Positions 19,958 through 50,903 of a stretch of 64,000 nucleotides of DNA are shown in pieces (the first letter of the stretch is position 1; every line of letters begins with the position of its first letter). The notes under the pieces were generated by a model. It saw only the letters and a program-made list of their open reading frames with translations, made no database searches and was not told the origin of the DNA. The stretch covers positions 1 to 64,000 of the forward strand of contig JALLLS010000002.1 in NCBI GenBank assembly GCA_025094145.1, in the 5' to 3' direction. This stretch comes from Spinellus fusiger. Its lineage: Eukaryota > Mucoromycota > Mucoromycetes > Mucorales > Phycomycetaceae. Both the position numbers and the translations under genes were made by a program.

Positions 19958-20195
19958 AAAACATACATACATACACAGATACACACATATATATACATAC
20001 ATACATACACACCTACATACATACATACATACATACATACATACATACATACATACATACATACATACATACATACATACATACATACATACATACATAC
20101 ATACATACATACATACATACATACATACACACCTACACACCTACATACACACCTACACACCTACATACACACCTACACACCTACATACATACATC
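19958..20195. repeat. (CATA)n microsatellite with ACACCTAC blocks
   Basis: About 30 uninterrupted CATA units, flanked by CACACCTACATA variants. It produces long spurious open frames on both strands (Tyr-Ile-His and Met-Tyr-Val-Cys repeats), none of which is a gene. Confidence 0.95.
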
Positions 20196-29167: not shown

Positions 29168-30239
29168 TTAATATTTTGTATGGCCTCCTCTGGCATCAAT
29201 GACTGCCTGGCATCTGTCTATCATACTTTGAATTCATTCTTGTACAAGCTCAACACCGACTCTCTCCCACTCCTCTGGAAGTAGAGCCTTCAAACTTTCA
29301 ACATTGGTAATAGATACCCTTCTTTTTTCAATCTGTCTTTCTATAGCCCACCAGATGTGTTCAATTGGAGTTAAGTCAGGAATTTGTGCGGGCCAGTACT
29401 CAAAGCCCCTAATATGATGCGTCTCTCTACCATATGGAATAGGCCCCAGTATGACATCTGGCATCATCTTATTATAACAGAAACACCCTGTCCTCTTTCT
29501 GATGCAATTCTATTAACCAAGGATAAAACTCACCAGCCAAAATATTGATATATTTGCATCGGTCTACAGTGCCATCAACAAAGACTAGTGAGCCAAATCT
29601 ATCTTCTCAAAAACAGCTCCAAAGCATGACCCCACCGCCACCAAACTTTGGTGTTGGAACACTATGATTAATATCATACCTTTCTCTAACTTTTCTGATG
29701 ACAAGGGCGCCTCCATTGCTCCCTCTCATGGTGTACCTCGACCCATCAGACCCGATGACGCCCTTCCGCTGGTTGTTCGTCCAATTGACATGTTCCTTAG
29801 TCCAAAGAAGCCTTTTCTCCTTATATTTTTCAGTTAAAGCTGGCTTGTGGTCAACAGAAAAAGATCCAAACACTAACTGATTACAGTAGCTGATAAGAGC
29901 TTTTCTATATACATCTACTTCAGACTTCAATATTTCTGATTTCAGTTGATCATATGGGGCAAATGGATCTTTTCTAATGATCTTTTCCAGGTATCTAAGG
30001 TCCCTCTCACTGGATTTTATTTTCTATGTTTTTCATGACTCTTTAAACGTAATGGTGACCTACGTTCTTTGGTATTCCTAATACTATTTTTGAACCGTAG
30101 GCGTTTTCATTTCAACTATGCTTGCAATGATAGTCAACTTTAATCTAGCCTTAAACTGGTAATATATGTCCTATCTTTCATTATCTTCCACTTGATCATA
30201 TTCTCCACAAGTGTGAGTTTCTGAGAATGCATCTGACAT
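29168..30239 (-). pseudogene. Tc1/mariner-type transposase, inactivated
   Basis: Read on the minus strand from a possible ATG at 30239 (MSDAFSETHTCGEYDQ), an N-terminal part with an HTH-like KARLKLTIIASIVEMKTPTV is followed by SERDLRYLEKIIRKDPFAPY. The DDE region follows: LLWTKEHVNWTNNQRKGVIG, SDGSRYTMRG, FGGGGVMLWSCF, VDGTVDRCKYINILAGEF, DDARCHTGAYSIW, YWPAQIPDLTPIEHIWWAIE, and the typical end GGHTKY. The catalytic Asp of SDGS, the DDA Asp and the PIEHIW Glu are present. TGA after WSCF and two TAA codons before DDA interrupt the frame. Each is explained by CGA or CAA codons changed by C-to-T. Upstream stops and frameshifts also exist. TIRs were not identified. Confidence 0.85.
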
Positions 30240-43574: not shown

Positions 43575-45078
43575 TATCTAGTCTGTATTTTACTTATTTC
43601 TTTCAATCTATGTCTTTATTATATAAATATAAAAGTGTATAAAACTCTCAAGAAATTCTTCTTTTCAATTAGTCATAGCTCTGACTCTTTTAGTGATACT
43701 AGACATTATAATATCTTTTGCATAAACAAAATTAAATAAGACACACTTGATTATTTTTTTAGATAGTTTACCTGTATCATGGGTTTCCTTCAGTTATTCA
43801 ATCGAGTTTCCATAGATCACTGCGGGGAACTAGGAGAGTGAACCAGAAGATATGGACCTTTTCTTAGTTCTAGTAGCATTTTGTTAAATAAGTAGTATTC
43901 TCAGTTCAGAGAAATAGATAGAAATATAACAATAAAGAGAAAATAAGTAGCCTATTTTTAATAATAACATTGAATAGTATTATTTGTTATTTATCATCTA
44001 TTGATGTGATGGTGTCGTCAATAGTTTCTTAGGTTCAAGGTTATTTGTTTAGTTAACGTACGATTCACTCTGCTATTTAACCTCTTTGTCATTCTTTTAT
44101 ACTTCTACTCTACTCTAATGATTACTACAAATAGAAGAACTTGACGGAAATAACTACCTAAAGGCACACATTCTAATATAGGCTGTTGTACTTTCATACC
44201 ATCTCCAAAAGATATATCCACTGCATTCAAATACGCTACAGCTTATCATAAATATTTCATCCCAGACGAGTCATTGTGTGGATGTTTCTTACGAATCCCT
44301 AACTGCTAATTTCTCGTTTTTAGGGCATTTTTTCTAGAGAAGAAGCTCTATTGATTTTCTCGATAAAGATTTGTCACACTTCTGTGATATTTATCACAAA
44401 CCTCACCACTCAAATATTGCACTCTATTCTTTAAATCCTGAATAGACATGCATAATATTAGTATTTCTTACTGAATGAGTTTGAAAGATAGACAAACCTC
44501 TACAAAGGTATGGACTGTATTTAGTTTTATGTTCTACTGTCACTTGAGTGATTTATGAAGATTTACAATAGCAACTATAAACACTCTCAGGACCTTTAGA
44601 TTATTATTATTATTATTTTTAAAAAGAAAAGGTTTTGAGTGGAAAATTAGCTGTAGATTTAATCAGATACAAGTAAATCCATTGGAACTTTCTTTTGGTC
44701 CAGAAATATTTAGTTTCTATTCAGTAGAATTCCAATATGAATAGAAACATATAATTATGGAAAATATATCCTTTCTATTAGTTACCATGGTCCATTGTTT
44801 TTACAATTCTTAATATAATATAACCAGTTCACATCATGAATCTGAAAAATAAAAGTAGTTTTATATGTGCGAAAACACCCCAAGTTTAATTATGAGTTCA
44901 AGAACATGCAGGTTTCTTTTTAAAAGTGACCAACAGAAAGAGTTAGGATTTTTCAAATTCAAGGCTATTCTTCTAGAAATAATAAACGTTCTTTTTATTT
45001 TATTTTATTTATATTACTACCTTTCTAATAAATTCTATACCACCCAGCACTGAAAATATATTTACCAAGATCCTCAAG
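43575..45078. other. Intergenic AT-rich region
   Basis: 3' flank of the deacetylase gene followed by AT-rich DNA with (ATT)n at 44602-44622. No exon recognised. The right part should hold the left end of the Tc1 element that follows, but its terminal repeat was not found. Confidence 0.5.
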
Positions 45079-46020
45079 ATGTATAAGAAGCATACCAGTA
45101 TTGAGACTCGCTCAGCCATCCTTCACCAGGTGCTGAGCTTGAACTCCACCCAAGTCGAGGCATCTCAAATATTCAACGTGCCTACTTCCACTGTAAAGAA
45201 CATCATTAAGCATTCCAAGAAGACAGGCTTGGTATTAACTTTACCCAAGAGTGGTCTCAAGAAAGATTTTGACTAAAGGGTCATCTAGTGGTTGCGAAGA
45301 ACAGTTGTGAGGGATCCCAAACAGACCAAGGATGCCATCATGGTAGACATGGCTATCAAAGTCTCTAGACAAATATTGAAGAACTATCTCGATAGAATGG
45401 GGCTCCGCTCTTTTATTCTGGTGCTCAAGCCTTTTCTCACCAAAAACATGGAGGCAAAGCTCCAATGAGCCCATGAACACGTTGACTTGACGCTTGAGCA
45501 GTGGCAAGAGGTGGTCTGAGTCTAGGGCCGAGATTATAAGCTTTGACAGGGGCGCCAAGGTCATCAAACAGTGTGGTACAGCCTTTGATCCTAAGAGCGT
45601 CCTGGAGACAAAGAAGTTTGGAGGTGGTTGAGTGATGGTATGGTGCTGTTTCAGTGGGAAGGGTGTTGGGAGATGGATTGTAGTGGAGGATATGATAAAC
45701 TCCAACAAGTGCATCAATGTCTTGGGAGATGTCTACTGCCATGAACTCGAGTATCTCTCTTCTAAAGCCCGGAGTCAGCTTCTACCTACAGGAGGACAAT
45801 GCTAGAATTTATACAAGCAAGGCGGCTAGAGAATAAAAGGTATTAAAAAAATATAATTATTTATCTTTACTGGTCCATACAAAGACCCGATCTAAATCCA
45901 ATTAAGCATCTGTGGGACCACCTAAAGAAGATCATCAGGAAGAACAGAAAGGTGTACACCACCAAACAGAGGTTGAAGGCTGCCCTGATGCTAGAATGGA
46001 GCAGAAATGACAGGCAATGA
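45079..46020 (+). pseudogene. Tc1/mariner-type transposase, inactivated (catalytic Glu lost)
   Basis: ATG 45079 (MYKKHTSIETRSAILHQVLS) opens a paired-like HTH region (ASQIFNVPTSTVKNIIKHSK). It continues in shifting frames: RRTVVRDPKQTKDAIMVDMA, MGLRSFILVLKPFLTKNME, SFDRGAKVIKQCGTAFDPKS, ETKKFGGG-stop-VMVWCCFSGK, WIVVEDMINSNKCINVLGDV, LQEDNARIYTSKAARE, and YWSIQRPDLNPIKHLWDHLK. The family's DDE motif should read SDES ... QQDNA ... NPIEHLW. Here the SDE block is shortened by a deletion, and the Glu is Lys (AAG for GAG). Several in-frame stops (TAA, TAG, TGA) confirm decay. It belongs to a different Tc1 lineage from the copy at 29-30 kb, judging by sequence. Confidence 0.88.
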
Positions 46021-46405
46021 TAGATACCAAAAACTGATATTGCTTACTAAGCGACCTACAAACAATTTTTTTATATCTTATAAACACTATTCCATGTATC
46101 TATTAAAACTTTCATATCTTTAACTAATGAATTCATAAAGTTATAACACTATTAAGAAAAGTATGAATATAAAAAAAAAGAAATATGCACTTGAAAATGA
46201 CCGGTTACTTATTGAGGGTTACTTTATTTTCAAATGAGTTGTTTTCTTTATCACTATATTATCCATTGTAAATACAAAGAGGTCTCTTATTAGTCTATTA
46301 CTTTGACACTATATCAAACAGTAAAGTAGTATTGGTCAAGTCACAGTCTAATTCTTATGTTTGTTAATGAAGACATATTCAGATACACCATTTTATAAGG
46401 AAAAC
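46021..46405. other. Spacer between the dead Tc1 transposase and the HTH-array ORF
   Basis: AT-rich. It should contain the right end of the Tc1 copy. No inverted repeat matching the left flank was found by eye. Confidence 0.4.
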
Positions 46406-48019
46406 TTAATTTATTTCATCAATTTGTAAAAGGTGAGCTTGATAAGTAGATTGATCCTGTTCATGCTTAACTTCTTCATTGTCTGGAGTGGTTTGTGTCT
46501 CTTCCTTCAAGTTCTCCAAATCATCCTCCTTGGTACTTATGCATACACTCTCTTTATCTTTTATGGACTCAAGAGTGCCGTTTTCCCTGAATCTCTTCAA
46601 GATAATGCAAACAGTCGATAAGCTAGTACCCACTATGGCAGCTATCTTCCTTTGGCTGAGTCCATTGACCTTGTGTTCATATATAACAGTGTTGCACATG
46701 TCTTCATCAACACGTTTTCCCTTTTCAAAAGTCTTATGTGGAATTCCAGTACTAAGTGTATGCTTTTTCAATATTGTACCAACAGTCATTTGGCTAGTGC
46801 CAGCTATAACGGCTATCTTCCTTTGGCTGAGTCCATTGTTAATGTGTTCATGTATAACAGTGTTGTGCATGTCTTCATCAACACGTTTCCCCTTTTTATG
46901 AGTTTTATGTGAAATTCCAGTACTAAGCGTATGCTTCTTCAATATTATACCAACAGTATTTTGGCAAACACCAACCATGGCCGCTATCTTCTCTTGACTG
47001 AGTCCATTGACCTTGTGTTCATGTACAATAGTTTTGCGCATGTCTTCATCAACACGTTTTCCCTTTTTACAAGTCTTATGGGGGATTCCAGTACTAAGCG
47101 TATGCTTCTTCAAAATATTGCTAACAGTCATTTGGCTAGTACCCACTATGGCAGCTATCTTCCTTTGGCTGAGTCCATTGACCTTGTGTTCATATATAAC
47201 AGTGTTGTGCATGTCTTCATCAACACGTTTTCCCTTTTTACAAGTCTTATGTGGAATTCCAGTACTAAGTGTATGCTTTTTCAATATTGTACCAACAGTC
47301 ATTTGGCTAGTGCCCACCATGGCAGCTATCTTCTTTTGAGTGAGTCCATTGTTAATGTGTTCATGTACGATAGTTTTGCGCATGTCTTCATCAACACGTT
47401 TTCCCTTTTTACAAGTCTTATGTGGAATTCCAGTACTAAGTGTATGTTCATTCAATATTTTACTGATAGTACATGTACTGGTGCCAACCATGGCAGCTAT
47501 CTTCTTTTGAGTGAGTCCATTGCTAATGTGTTCATGTACGATAGTTTTGCGCATGTCTTCATCAACACGTTTTCCCTTTTTACAAGTCTTATGTGGAATT
47601 CCAGTACTAAGTGTATGCTTTTTCAATATTGTACCAACAGTCATTTGGCTAGTGCCAGCTATAACGGCTATCTTCCTTTGGCTGAGTCCATTGTTAATGT
47701 GTTCATGTATAACAGTGTTGTGCATGTCTTCATCAACACGTTTCCCCTTTTTATGAGTTTTATGTGAAATTCCAGTACTAAGCGTATGCTTCTTCAATAT
47801 TATACCAACAGTATTTTGGCAAACACCAACCATGGCCGCTATCTTCTCTTGACTGAGTCCATTGACCTTGTGTTCATGTACAATAGTTTTGCGCATGTCT
47901 TCATCAACACGTTTTCCCTTTTTATGAGTCTTATGGAGAACACCTGTACCAATTATCTCTTTAGTAGTGTCTGTTTGCTCATTAGCAGCCGTTTGTTTGA
48001 TGAGTGAAGTGGTAAGCAT
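46406..48019 (-). CDS. Tandem helix-turn-helix array protein (eight 57-residue HTH units)
   Basis: An intronless frame of 537 residues from ATG 48019 (MLTTSLIKQTAANEQTD; a GTG seven codons upstream is less likely). Residues 26-481 are eight consecutive 57-residue units without spacer. Each has a basic arm (HKTHKKGKRVDEDM), a helix (RKTIVHEHKVNG) and a textbook HTH (LSQEKIAAMVGVCQNTVGII). The last unit ends STVCIILKRFRENGTLE, the wording found at the end of Tc1/mariner paired-like HTH domains (RFRETG). The units are therefore probably amplified transposase DNA-binding domains. A 56-residue acidic tail (KEDDLENLKEETQTTPDNEE...) follows; there is no DDE catalytic part. A role as a multi-site DNA-binding protein is inference, and it could also be a young, non-functional expansion. 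Confidence 0.6.
   Translation of the reverse strand: MLTTSLIKQTAANEQTDTTKEIIGTGVLHKTHKKGKRVDEDMRKTIVHEHKVNGLSQEKIAAMVGVCQNTVGIILKKHTLSTGISHKTHKKGKRVDEDMHNTVIHEHINNGLSQRKIAVIAGTSQMTVGTILKKHTLSTGIPHKTCKKGKRVDEDMRKTIVHEHISNGLTQKKIAAMVGTSTCTISKILNEHTLSTGIPHKTCKKGKRVDEDMRKTIVHEHINNGLTQKKIAAMVGTSQMTVGTILKKHTLSTGIPHKTCKKGKRVDEDMHNTVIYEHKVNGLSQRKIAAIVGTSQMTVSNILKKHTLSTGIPHKTCKKGKRVDEDMRKTIVHEHKVNGLSQEKIAAMVGVCQNTVGIILKKHTLSTGISHKTHKKGKRVDEDMHNTVIHEHINNGLSQRKIAVIAGTSQMTVGTILKKHTLSTGIPHKTFEKGKRVDEDMCNTVIYEHKVNGLSQRKIAAIVGTSLSTVCIILKRFRENGTLESIKDKESVCISTKEDDLENLKEETQTTPDNEEVKHEQDQSTYQAHLLQIDEIN
46577..47944 (-). repeat. Eight tandem 171-nt units encoding HTH domains
   Basis: Unit borders on the minus strand fall at about 47944, 47773, 47602, 47431, 47260, 47089, 46918 and 46747, ending at 46577. 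The plus-strand marker CATCAACACGTTT recurs once per 171 bases. About 338 bases at 46730-47068 appear identical to 47585-47923, exactly five units (855 bases) away. Other units differ from each other by several substitutions. The unit length is a multiple of three, so frames stay open on both strands. Confidence 0.92.
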
Positions 48020-50903
48020 TAAGGAAAGTGTCGAATACACTGTAGTTTGGATGAATTATTATTCGGGAAATGAAAATATGACTGTGATATTCACAGAGTA
48101 GTTAGGATTTTCACTGCTTAGATATTCTTCCCTTCTCTTCATTAGAATAAAGCAATCCAGCTACACCAAGTCATTCGTAAGGAAAAGTTCAACTATTTGA
48201 CTCTCAACATAGAAACACCTTTTTATAATTATTATTGAAGGAATGATATATATATCTATATATCATCAGCTAATAAATGTCTTTTATTTCTATCCATCCT
48301 ACTATTATAGTGGCTTTGATGTGATTAAAAATATAACACGACTCTGCACAGGCACAGTGATGTAGATCTTGGACTTATTTATTTATTTATAAATAATAAA
48401 CGCTATTTGTTATTTATATTTATAAATTATAAGAAGTCTAATGTCTATCTAAAGAAGACCATTTTAAATTTGAAAATCCTTATAATTTGTTTTACTCTTT
48501 GTTAAGTATAGCAATTGACAATATGTTCTTGAAATATATAGCTTTTCATTGGATTTAATTAAGAAATACAGGTTATTTCAAAATAATAGATATCTTTCAA
48601 GATCTTAGTGTAAATAGTACAGTCAATACTATCTTTCATTGCATATAATCTTCTCATATTTTGACTATAAAACGAAGTCTACATCATTATTTCTCTAGTT
48701 CTACCAAGACCTATTGCTTTCTTTTCATTCTTGAATAGAAGATCTTTATTCTTTCTCTATACCAAATTTTGCGGTCATTATTGAAGATAGTATAGTATCT
48801 TGATTTATCTGATAAGACAATGACACACCGCTTTTTCTTGGTCTAATATTGATAATTTTTATCTTGTTCAAGTCGTATCTTTTTGTACTTTCTGGTAGGA
48901 GTATGGTTTTATATGACACTATCCAAAAACAACATAATTTTCTTTGTTCTTTTGCTGAATGTGTTCATTAAAACTTGGGCACCCATTTCTATGTAGAATT
49001 TCTTTTGTATCTGAAATATATATCAATATGAATCATGAAGTATGCATCTCGTTCTTATCGAGGATAAGCTTTCTTCGAGTACAATATTTAGTTTTGAAAG
49101 TATAATTCTCTTTGTGTCTTTTCAGTAAATATGAAATAATCATGAAATCCACATTAGAATTAGCATTAATTTAAAACTGGATAGTGTAATTTACAGCCGC
49201 CTCCTGAACGATAAGACAACAGGTAAAGTGTATATTTTTTTTATTCATTTTGTTATAAATAAAAAGCTTGATAGTTTGCTCATTTCTGTGAGATGAGATA
49301 GGCATCATAGTAGAATAGTCATGAGAGAAAGATAAACAAAGAAAAGTAAATATTTTCCAAACAAAATCGAGTTATCTATAAATGTCCTAAAACTCGTTGT
49401 ATTTGTAAATCAACATAGTACTTTTCTGGTTTACTTATCTTTATGTAGACTATTCCATCTCTGCTAGCTCTAGACCTTGGATAATAACTGTTCCCTGATA
49501 ATTATTTATTGAGTAAAAATACTAATCTTGTTGTAGGGTTTATAGATAATGTCTTTAAATCAATATTGAGTTTGTGCTTCTTCCTTTATCTCATCATATT
49601 TTTATTTAATCTTTGAAACTGTTAATGATAGTTATTGTTTTTTTTAATTATATTTATTAAAGACACTCTTTTGTACTAATTATCATGAATATTTATAGAT
49701 TGAGAGGTTAGATTTTCCTAAGACATAAACTTGGGCTTGTGCTTTTCAAAAGATCTACTCTTCTTGGTGTGTGTGTGTGTGTTTTTTTTTTACAACCTCT
49801 TTTAAAAGATCTTATGGAGTCTCCAATAGAACCAATGGGTGATTGATATAGAACAATTTTCAAATATAACCCTATAAAATATCTTTCTTCTGATACTGAA
49901 TATCTTTGGCATCTCTTTCTGTATTGATATTATCTATTACATATAATATTAATCTTTTGTCCTTGAAGGGGTTTTTAATACATTCCTTATTTTTGTTTAC
50001 CTTTCCTCTTTTTACTATTTTTATTATCTGTGTCTCGGATATTTTATCAGCATACTTCAGTTTCATTCCACGTTCTCAGATGGTCGGTAAGTCTAATATA
50101 CGTCTAACAGCCAATACCTACAGCATGAAGCAACTCAAACTCTATTCCTTATATTTCAAATACCATGTAACTATAATCTCCCTACATAATTATATTAGTT
50201 TGTCTTATTTTATAAGTAAATGTATGTACATGTAAATGCAATATTTATTTATTTTGAAATCTGAGTACCATACAGGAAATATACAAAAATAATTATGTAC
50301 TCTAAATGTCTCTTGGAAAACTATTCATAGAGTAATGAAAAGAAGAAGAGAAAAGATCTAACAAGTAAATAAGGAATAATAGAGTGCATACACTTATACT
50401 ATTCTAAATTTAATTTTCAATCGTACAAAGCATTCTAGATTATTATATTGTTTAGCATATACCGATCGAGATAAACAATAATGTCCCATAGATCCGATAA
50501 GCCTACTTATTCCATTTATGCTATTGACTCTGCTTGAAACACTTGATGGTTACTTTAGCTTTCTGTTATTGTTTTTAGGGTATATCTTTAATAAATTTCA
50601 TTTTCAGGATTTATTTGGACAAAATTTTAATTTATCATAAGTTATACACATCATCCCACCTATTGTATTGCTCGTTTCAAAAAAAAAAAAGGTATCTCAT
50701 TTGCATGCGCTTTATTGTAGACATTAACTTCTATGGCACTAATTTCATTTTGAAATGTATGCAATAGTAAGAAGAAAGGTTACTATTTTAATTTAAATCA
50801 ATATCATAAATCCACCTATATTGGCCTCCAGTCTTCTACCTTTGTACTTCAAAGAAGCTGTCAAGTTGGATACTCTTCAGTATACAAGCCAACTTATTAT
50901 GTT
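48020..50903. other. Gene-poor AT-rich region
   Basis: 2.9 kb without a recognised exon. A (GT)n run followed by poly-T lies at 49770-49791. A hydrophobic plus-strand frame at 49906-50235 (LFLFTFPLFTIFIICVSDIL) is AT-composition driven and not supported as a gene. The 3' flank of ZGPAT is at the right. Confidence 0.45.

Follow-up and report, generated by a model that had tools for sequence, protein, structure and literature searches.

A tandem array of helix-turn-helix units in Spinellus fusiger, probably belonging to a large gene family of apparent transposase origin

Introduction

Proteins that carry DNA-binding modules in tandem are found in several settings. The polydactyl C2H2 zinc-finger proteins, of which KRAB-ZNF proteins and PRDM9 are examples, and the bacterial TALEs are the best-known polydactyl arrays of changeable specificity. 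Tandem repeats occur also in Drosophila Psq, which has four Psq motifs, and in MYB proteins, and we know of no large family of either the Pipsqueak or the MYB type in which the recognition residues are variable.

The window studied here is the whole stretch of DNA that was analysed, 64,000 nucleotides of a contig from the fungus Spinellus fusiger. It holds a long open reading frame made of repeated helix-turn-helix (HTH) units, and the question raised by this locus is whether the frame is a passive repeat, a part of a mobile element or a gene in its own right and, if it is a gene, what its repeated units might do. A preliminary description of the window had suggested that the HTH of a transposase was amplified into an array of DNA-binding domains. 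The comparisons presented here lead us to conclude that the frame is probably one member of a large polydactyl HTH gene family.

Results

Layout of the window frame

The frame lies on the minus strand (48019 -> 46406) and consists of 537 codons and a stop, with an ATG start and a TAA stop codon. Measured from stop to stop it is 549 amino acids long and reaches 48055, so that 12 open codons lie upstream of the ATG. The encoded protein has eight HTH units of 57 residues, a new unit beginning each 171 nt, and the same period is reported by Tandem Repeats Finder at 46622-47935 (7.7 copies, 85% matches, 0% indels). The units are followed by a C-terminal tail of 56 residues, in which D and E together number 16 and K and R five. 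The frame, the spacing of the units and the composition of the tail thus bear out the eight fused units and the acidic tail that had been described. The units had also been said to lack linkers; they are indeed contiguous, but an AlphaFold model of a unit has about 16 basic, non-helical residues ahead of helix 1, and such a segment is present in each of them. The features are given below, with the residues at four variable positions of helix 3 written as a code for each unit.

46406..48019, minus strand: whole array ORF, 537 codons and stop
47789..47959, minus strand: HTH unit 1, helix-3 code QN..GI; its first residues are unlike those of the other units
47618..47788, minus strand: HTH unit 2, code QM..GT; DNA identical to unit 7
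47447..47617, minus strand: HTH unit 3, code TC..SK
47276..47446, minus strand: HTH unit 4, code QM..GT
47105..47275, minus strand: HTH unit 5, code QM..SN
46934..47104, minus strand: HTH unit 6, code QN..GI; DNA 92% identical to unit 1
46763..46933, minus strand: HTH unit 7, code QM..GT; DNA identical to unit 2
46592..46762, minus strand: HTH unit 8, code LS..CI; continues into RFRENGTLE; the counterpart in the Tc1-like transposase L056 is KKYRETG
46409..46576, minus strand: acidic C-terminal tail of 56 residues
44951..46228, plus strand: Tc1-like element with broken frames, from a common dispersed family; a neighbour outside the array

The identity of units 2 and 7, which extends across all 171 nt, together with the close similarity of units 1 and 6, indicates duplication of a two-unit block. 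Against Pfam, the whole protein matches HTH_23 (8.8e-36) and HTH_SB, the Sleeping Beauty HTH (1.8e-32), across the repeated units; a single unit falls below every cut-off. The 25 best of the 56 Pfam matches are mostly to HTH families and include no zinc finger, no HTH_psq and no DDE family, in agreement with the earlier observation that a DDE catalytic region is missing. The second HTH (RED) is not present in the window protein either, and the acidic tail is found there instead. Elsewhere in the window, at 19961-20194, a long ACAT repeat gives rise to a low-complexity open frame of HTYIHT repeats that is unlike the array.

Related loci in the genome

When the genome (38.08 Mb, 197 contigs) was searched with the window protein, 96 matches were obtained and collapsed by hand into 74 loci on 40 contigs. 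The figure of 74 is a lower bound, 81 of 448 first-look candidates having been scored, and the weakest of the 96 matches, several of which have inner stops, may be transposon copies or lone HTHs. The loci are clustered, with 12 on the contig of the window where 2.3 would be expected and six on contig C137 where 0.6 would be expected.

We read 42 of the 74 loci, namely the window and 40 regions holding the 41 best-scoring loci, a choice that biases the sample toward open frames. The 42 arrays that they contain have from 1 to 10 units each. A single open frame holds all of the profile-detected units in 36 of them, counting as open L013 and L019, in which 16 N-terminal residues match in another frame, and with the proviso that L026 is cut by the end of its contig and that tails are cut in some arrays, for example L011, L014 and L028. 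In the remaining six (L009, L010, L015, L027, L034 and L037) stops interrupt the array or its units fall in different frames. With regard to the C-terminus, 28 of the 42 have an acidic tail, as defined by a text pattern, eight have a RED domain, as defined by a RED profile, and six have neither.

Two of the arrays, at L017 (G000:C140:12500-19200), are placed head to head, with a common 5' leader, different units and different C-termini, one of the RED type and the other an acidic tail. The tails of L025, of the minus-strand array at L017 and of the window have in common an acidic segment followed by an end rich in leucine, DHDPSSLQALLLLHAG for L025 and DQSTYQAHLLQIDE for the window, and by eye these ends resemble LxxLL or activation-type motifs.

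Protein searches gave no homologue at E<=0.001, either with the window protein among 7992 candidates scored or with an alignment of five members among 7995 candidates scored. Of 17 stretches in viral contigs that fitted the pattern none was confirmed as an array homologue, nor was any of 38 in bacterial and archaeal genome contigs. Records of close relatives may be missing from these collections, and the results have no bearing on other fungi.

Constraint on units and tails

It could be argued that the array is a passive 171-bp satellite, its open frame being a functionless by-product of recent tandem duplication. The head-to-tail arrangement of the repeats, the identical copies within an array and the splitting of 6 of the 42 arrays would fit such a history, for which the preliminary description had anticipated a dN/dS near 1 between units and the absence of any intact multi-unit homologue. 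Neither was found. At all codons other than 45, 46, 49 and 50 the units have a pN/pS of 0.34-0.54, and within the same genome, which is where multi-unit homologues were sought, open multi-unit paralogues are common. The acidic tails, which are not repeated, have a pN/pS of 0.32 (10 close tails, 45 pairs) or 0.34 (15 tails, 100 of 105 pairs), counted over all pairs and including tails of the split loci L015 and L037; L009, L010 and L034. When neutral change of the window frame was simulated, the frame stayed open in 7.9% of 1000 runs at 0.05 changes per site and in 0.6% at 0.10, whereas many of the diverged paralogues are open. A passive satellite does not fit the constraint on scaffold and tail and the rare survival of the frame under neutrality, nor does it fit the concentration of fast change at four codons of the recognition helix, and we consider it highly improbable.

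Relationship to Tc1-like transposases

Other family members, when used as queries, also retrieve Tc1-like loci in the same genome. The transposon at L056 (G000:C119:206600-208700) has an open frame for a Tc1-like transposase, 335 residues long, in which HTH_23, HTH_Tnp_Tc3_2 and DDE_3 domains are found. Its inverted repeats, 279 nt long and 99% identical, extend to the limit of the retrieved sequence, and with such arms and an open frame this transposon is probably young. The DNA-binding domain of L056 can be aligned with the end of the array protein L022 over 108 residues, ungapped and through both HTHs (29% identity, E=2e-18). Its match to the window protein (BLASTP, 30% over 83 residues, gapped, E=1e-10) covers the last unit and extends slightly beyond it. 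Both alignments uphold the derivation of the units from a transposase HTH, and L056 is a possible source type of the arrays.

The array unit is thus homologous to the PAI-like HTH with which such a transposase begins, and it is present in 1-10 tandem copies, with block duplications. The simplest reading is that this HTH was multiplied, that the catalytic half was lost, and that in most members the RED domain was replaced by an acidic tail. In the eight arrays that retain RED, the frames end shortly past it without a DDE continuation.

Flanks and mobility

Since the HTH derives from a Tc1-like transposase, and the transposase family concerned is abundant (1398 first-look candidates, of which 150 were scored), the arrays could themselves be part of a mobile element that they assist, acting for instance as a repressor of Tc1-like transposons or as a helper that binds their ends. 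A Tc1-like match of at least 300 nt is present in the fetched stretch of 22 of 41 sources. In addition, eight of the 42 arrays, mostly from one close subfamily (L010, L020, L028, L029, L034, L046, L047 and L048), have a 5' arm of the L056 type, about 360 nt long and 74-82% identical, which precedes the first unit by 475-832 nt and is oriented as in the transposon. It may be left over from the 5' end of the source transposon, or it may go back to an old insertion that these arrays share. However, a 5' arm in transposon orientation accompanied by an inverted 3' arm of this type was found in none of the 42 arrays, and judged by such arms no complete mobile unit carrying an array was seen among them. 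For the window array, no L056-type arm was detected at E<=1e-3 between 43001 and 52000, and the region 45700-48900 contains only two short pairs of inverted repeats, of 70-85%, compared with the long and nearly identical arms of L056. Furthermore, homology between paralogous loci stops at differing points, as it does in segmental duplication. Taken together, membership of the arrays in a mobile element seems quite unlikely.

The family of the Tc1-like element at 44951-46228 is dispersed, with 616 first-look candidates, of which 40 were scored. Kin of this element also lie beside L015 (95% identity) and, as partial copies, beside L019 and L037 (74-75%), in each case 363-367 nt from the units, and the equal distance at these loci and in the window is attributable to joint duplication. 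At L020 an element of the same family lies 290 nt past the units, in the opposite orientation relative to the array. The shared Tc1 remnant and the differing ends of homology suggest that segmental duplication accounts for at least part of the spread of the clustered loci. A functional partnership between the array and this element was considered and dropped, as the element belongs to a dispersed family, has broken frames and has an HTH that by eye reads differently. A further open fragment in the window, at 29607-30023 on the minus strand, has the look of a Tc1-type transposase by eye, with GGGGVMLWSCF near its end.

Variation at the recognition helix

The AlphaFold model of a unit has three helices, the third of which starts at residue 48, so that the variable residues 48, 49, 52 and 53 occupy helix positions 1, 2, 5 and 6. 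In HTH proteins these positions of helix 3 form the base-reading face. They correspond to columns 45, 46, 49 and 50 of the unit alignment. Over 168 near-full units and 53 columns, the two highest entropies are those of recognition-helix columns 46, with 3.31 bits, and 45, with 3.16. Columns 50 (2.63) and 49 (2.28) are also raised, yet not above several columns of the arm (4, 5, 6, 9 and 14); within the arm and linker, column 14 reaches 2.96 and column 4 reaches 2.73, with columns 5, 6 and 9 raised too. Core columns 26, 30, 37, 38, 51 and 52 have values of 0.23-0.61. Columns 45, 46, 49 and 50 contain 13, 17, 9 and 13 different amino acids, respectively, in 159 units, and 109 distinct four-residue codes are found across 148 units.

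Selection was assessed on 148 unique units from 202 unit matches, in pairs that share no unit, leaving out the six split loci, gappy units and identical units. Pairs without shared units replaced a binning of codon pairs by pS, which was abandoned because it inflates the lowest bin, and pairing by whole-unit similarity was added because pairing by scaffold similarity favours low scaffold divergence. At codons 45, 46, 49 and 50 pN is 0.31-0.45, which exceeds the pS of the other codons taken together by a factor of 1.5-4.3 in eight overlapping comparisons that should not be counted as independent tests. These are the four fastest codons in six of the eight, and random sets of four codons equalled their summed pN in 0 or 1 of 20000 draws. 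Relative to the other codons, the ratio of nonsynonymous to synonymous changes (N:S) at the four is shifted in all 74 pairs (p=0.00003), in pairs matched on columns 1-42 (p=0.00007) and in the 37 pairs matched on whole units (p=0.0003), where the four-codon pN is 0.23 and the core pS 0.12. In the closest 15 pairs there are 20 N changes to 1 S (p=0.002 against all other codons).

The pS of the four codons is itself raised, being 0.18-0.43 (0.03 in the closest 15 pairs, where it reflects one change), and their own pN/pS is about 1.0-1.7, reaching 4.97 only in the closest 15 pairs. As pS is raised there too, this ratio on its own would not show positive selection, and exchange of short segments, local mutation bias or relaxed constraint may contribute at the four codons. 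Taken further, gene conversion that exchanges old divergent pieces of helix 3 among units, under relaxed constraint, could account for the variable residues altogether without any selection for new specificity. Besides the raised pS, identical codes and blocks do recur within and between arrays. On the other hand, in the same pairs the neighbouring codons of helix 3 (43, 44, 47, 48 and 51-53) have an ordinary pS of 0.07-0.22 and a low pN of 0.04-0.11, which limits any exchange of the whole helix since such exchange would have to spare them, and the N:S shift at the four codons is toward N. Gene conversion with relaxed constraint as the full explanation is in our view unlikely.

The transposase domain itself served as a control: 26 loci gave 22 matches and 18 unique rows, some of them with stops, and all pairs were compared. 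In these 18 copies the first two of the helix-3 positions vary (pN 0.51 and 0.37) and the last two are conserved (0.16 and 0.06), the four together having a pN/pS of 0.63 compared with 0.39 for the remainder of the HTH. The transposase is thus already variable at two of the four positions, and half of the pattern may be older than the arrays. By these sequence comparisons it is the opening of variability at all four positions that is special to the arrays, in which scaffold and tail are constrained while helix-3 positions 1, 2, 5 and 6 change fast. This fast change, in a family of at least 74 related loci, lends support to the polydactyl logic put forward in the preliminary description.

Discussion

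Variable residues at the expected base-contact face of a conserved scaffold suggest a family of DNA-reading arrays, and as such we think it likely, with any particular role held less firmly than that. Each unit would place its basic arm and recognition helix on successive stretches of DNA, and the array would thereby read a long composite site. New target sites could be gained through change in the four residues or by the copying and shuffling of units, and the acidic tail could contact other proteins. Structure prediction is uninformative on how the units are set against each other, a model of three units having a mean pLDDT of 62.9 and a pTM of 0.29. The most likely role of the arrays would be sequence-specific regulation or silencing. 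Mobile DNA is a plausible driver of the fast change of the codes; as the preliminary description proposed, the window array could perhaps bind nearby transposon ends, and its acidic tail could recruit transcription machinery.

It is conceivable that the arrays are no longer specific DNA binders and that their HTH units act as protein-protein or RNA-binding repeats. There is a precedent for such a change in Caenorhabditis, where F-box proteins captured a Tc1/mariner HTH that is described as uninvolved in transcriptional regulation and as a possible protein interaction platform (PMC12062965). In the same study, however, the F-box HTH is said to be mainly under purifying selection, whereas change in the present arrays falls on the face expected to contact bases. 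The window array is also basic, with 80 K and R to 37 D and E over its 456 residues. We regard a role away from DNA as very unlikely.

The family of DNA-reading arrays can be set beside several known systems, and a search of the mostly open-access journal literature found no description of such HTH arrays. The conversion of transposase parts into host proteins is known (PMC10027918, PMC12062965, PMC10085805). The Cbp1 family of fission yeasts, for instance, comprises transposase-derived host proteins with N-terminal tandem HTH domains (PMC10085805), and in Cbp1 and the F-box family, as in the arrays, domesticated transposase parts appear to have been amplified in a host lineage. The Cbp1 proteins differ in that they retain a mostly degenerate DDE domain, and the F-box proteins in that their HTH is accompanied by F-box and FTH domains. 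In the text consulted from these two papers, no long array of a single HTH is described for either family (PMC10085805, PMC12062965). Homeodomain-like proteins are named as one of three expanding families of fungal transcription factors (PMC5415576), and members of the array family may for this reason already lie unrecognised in annotations.

Tc1/mariner transposases, such as Tc3 and Sleeping Beauty with their PAI-RED arrangement, share with the arrays a homologous HTH and, in 8 of the 42, the RED domain, and a transposase frame of this kind is present in the same genome. The arrays are set apart from them by the repetition of the first HTH in up to 10 copies, by the variability of all four helix-3 positions and, for the window protein, by the lack of a catalytic domain. 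Pipsqueak and MYB proteins also consist of tandem HTH-like motifs, and Psq too is said to come from a transposase, that of pogo (PMC10027918). In those proteins, however, the repeats are few, and HTH_psq does not appear among the 25 best-scoring of the 56 Pfam matches of the window protein.

The closest likeness in pattern is to the animal C2H2 zinc-finger arrays, which the present arrays would resemble while being built from a transposase domain. In both, DNA-binding modules stand in tandem, four specificity residues per module, all in one helix, vary, the frame is kept and the genes form multigene families (PMC5588721). The arrays differ from C2H2 proteins in having an HTH rather than a zinc-finger fold, in their 57-residue units and in their fungal host. 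According to the same paper, C2H2 diversification is tied to metazoans and the binding of fungal fingers is called constrained (PMC5588721). If our reading is true, the fungal HTH family would have arrived at the polydactyl strategy independently, using a transposase domain with relatives that persist in the same genome. The arrays would then offer a new modular DNA-binding scaffold, and through them it could be tested whether arms races with mobile DNA drive polydactyl families outside animals. A wider proposal, which we hold tentatively and at somewhat less than even weight, is that a fungal transposase HTH gave rise to a fast-evolving polydactyl family of regulators or genome-defence proteins, in which four helix-3 residues serve as the code and unit duplication builds long target sites; the arrays could in that case join C2H2 fingers and TALEs as a third class, found in nature, of DNA-reading arrays that look programmable.
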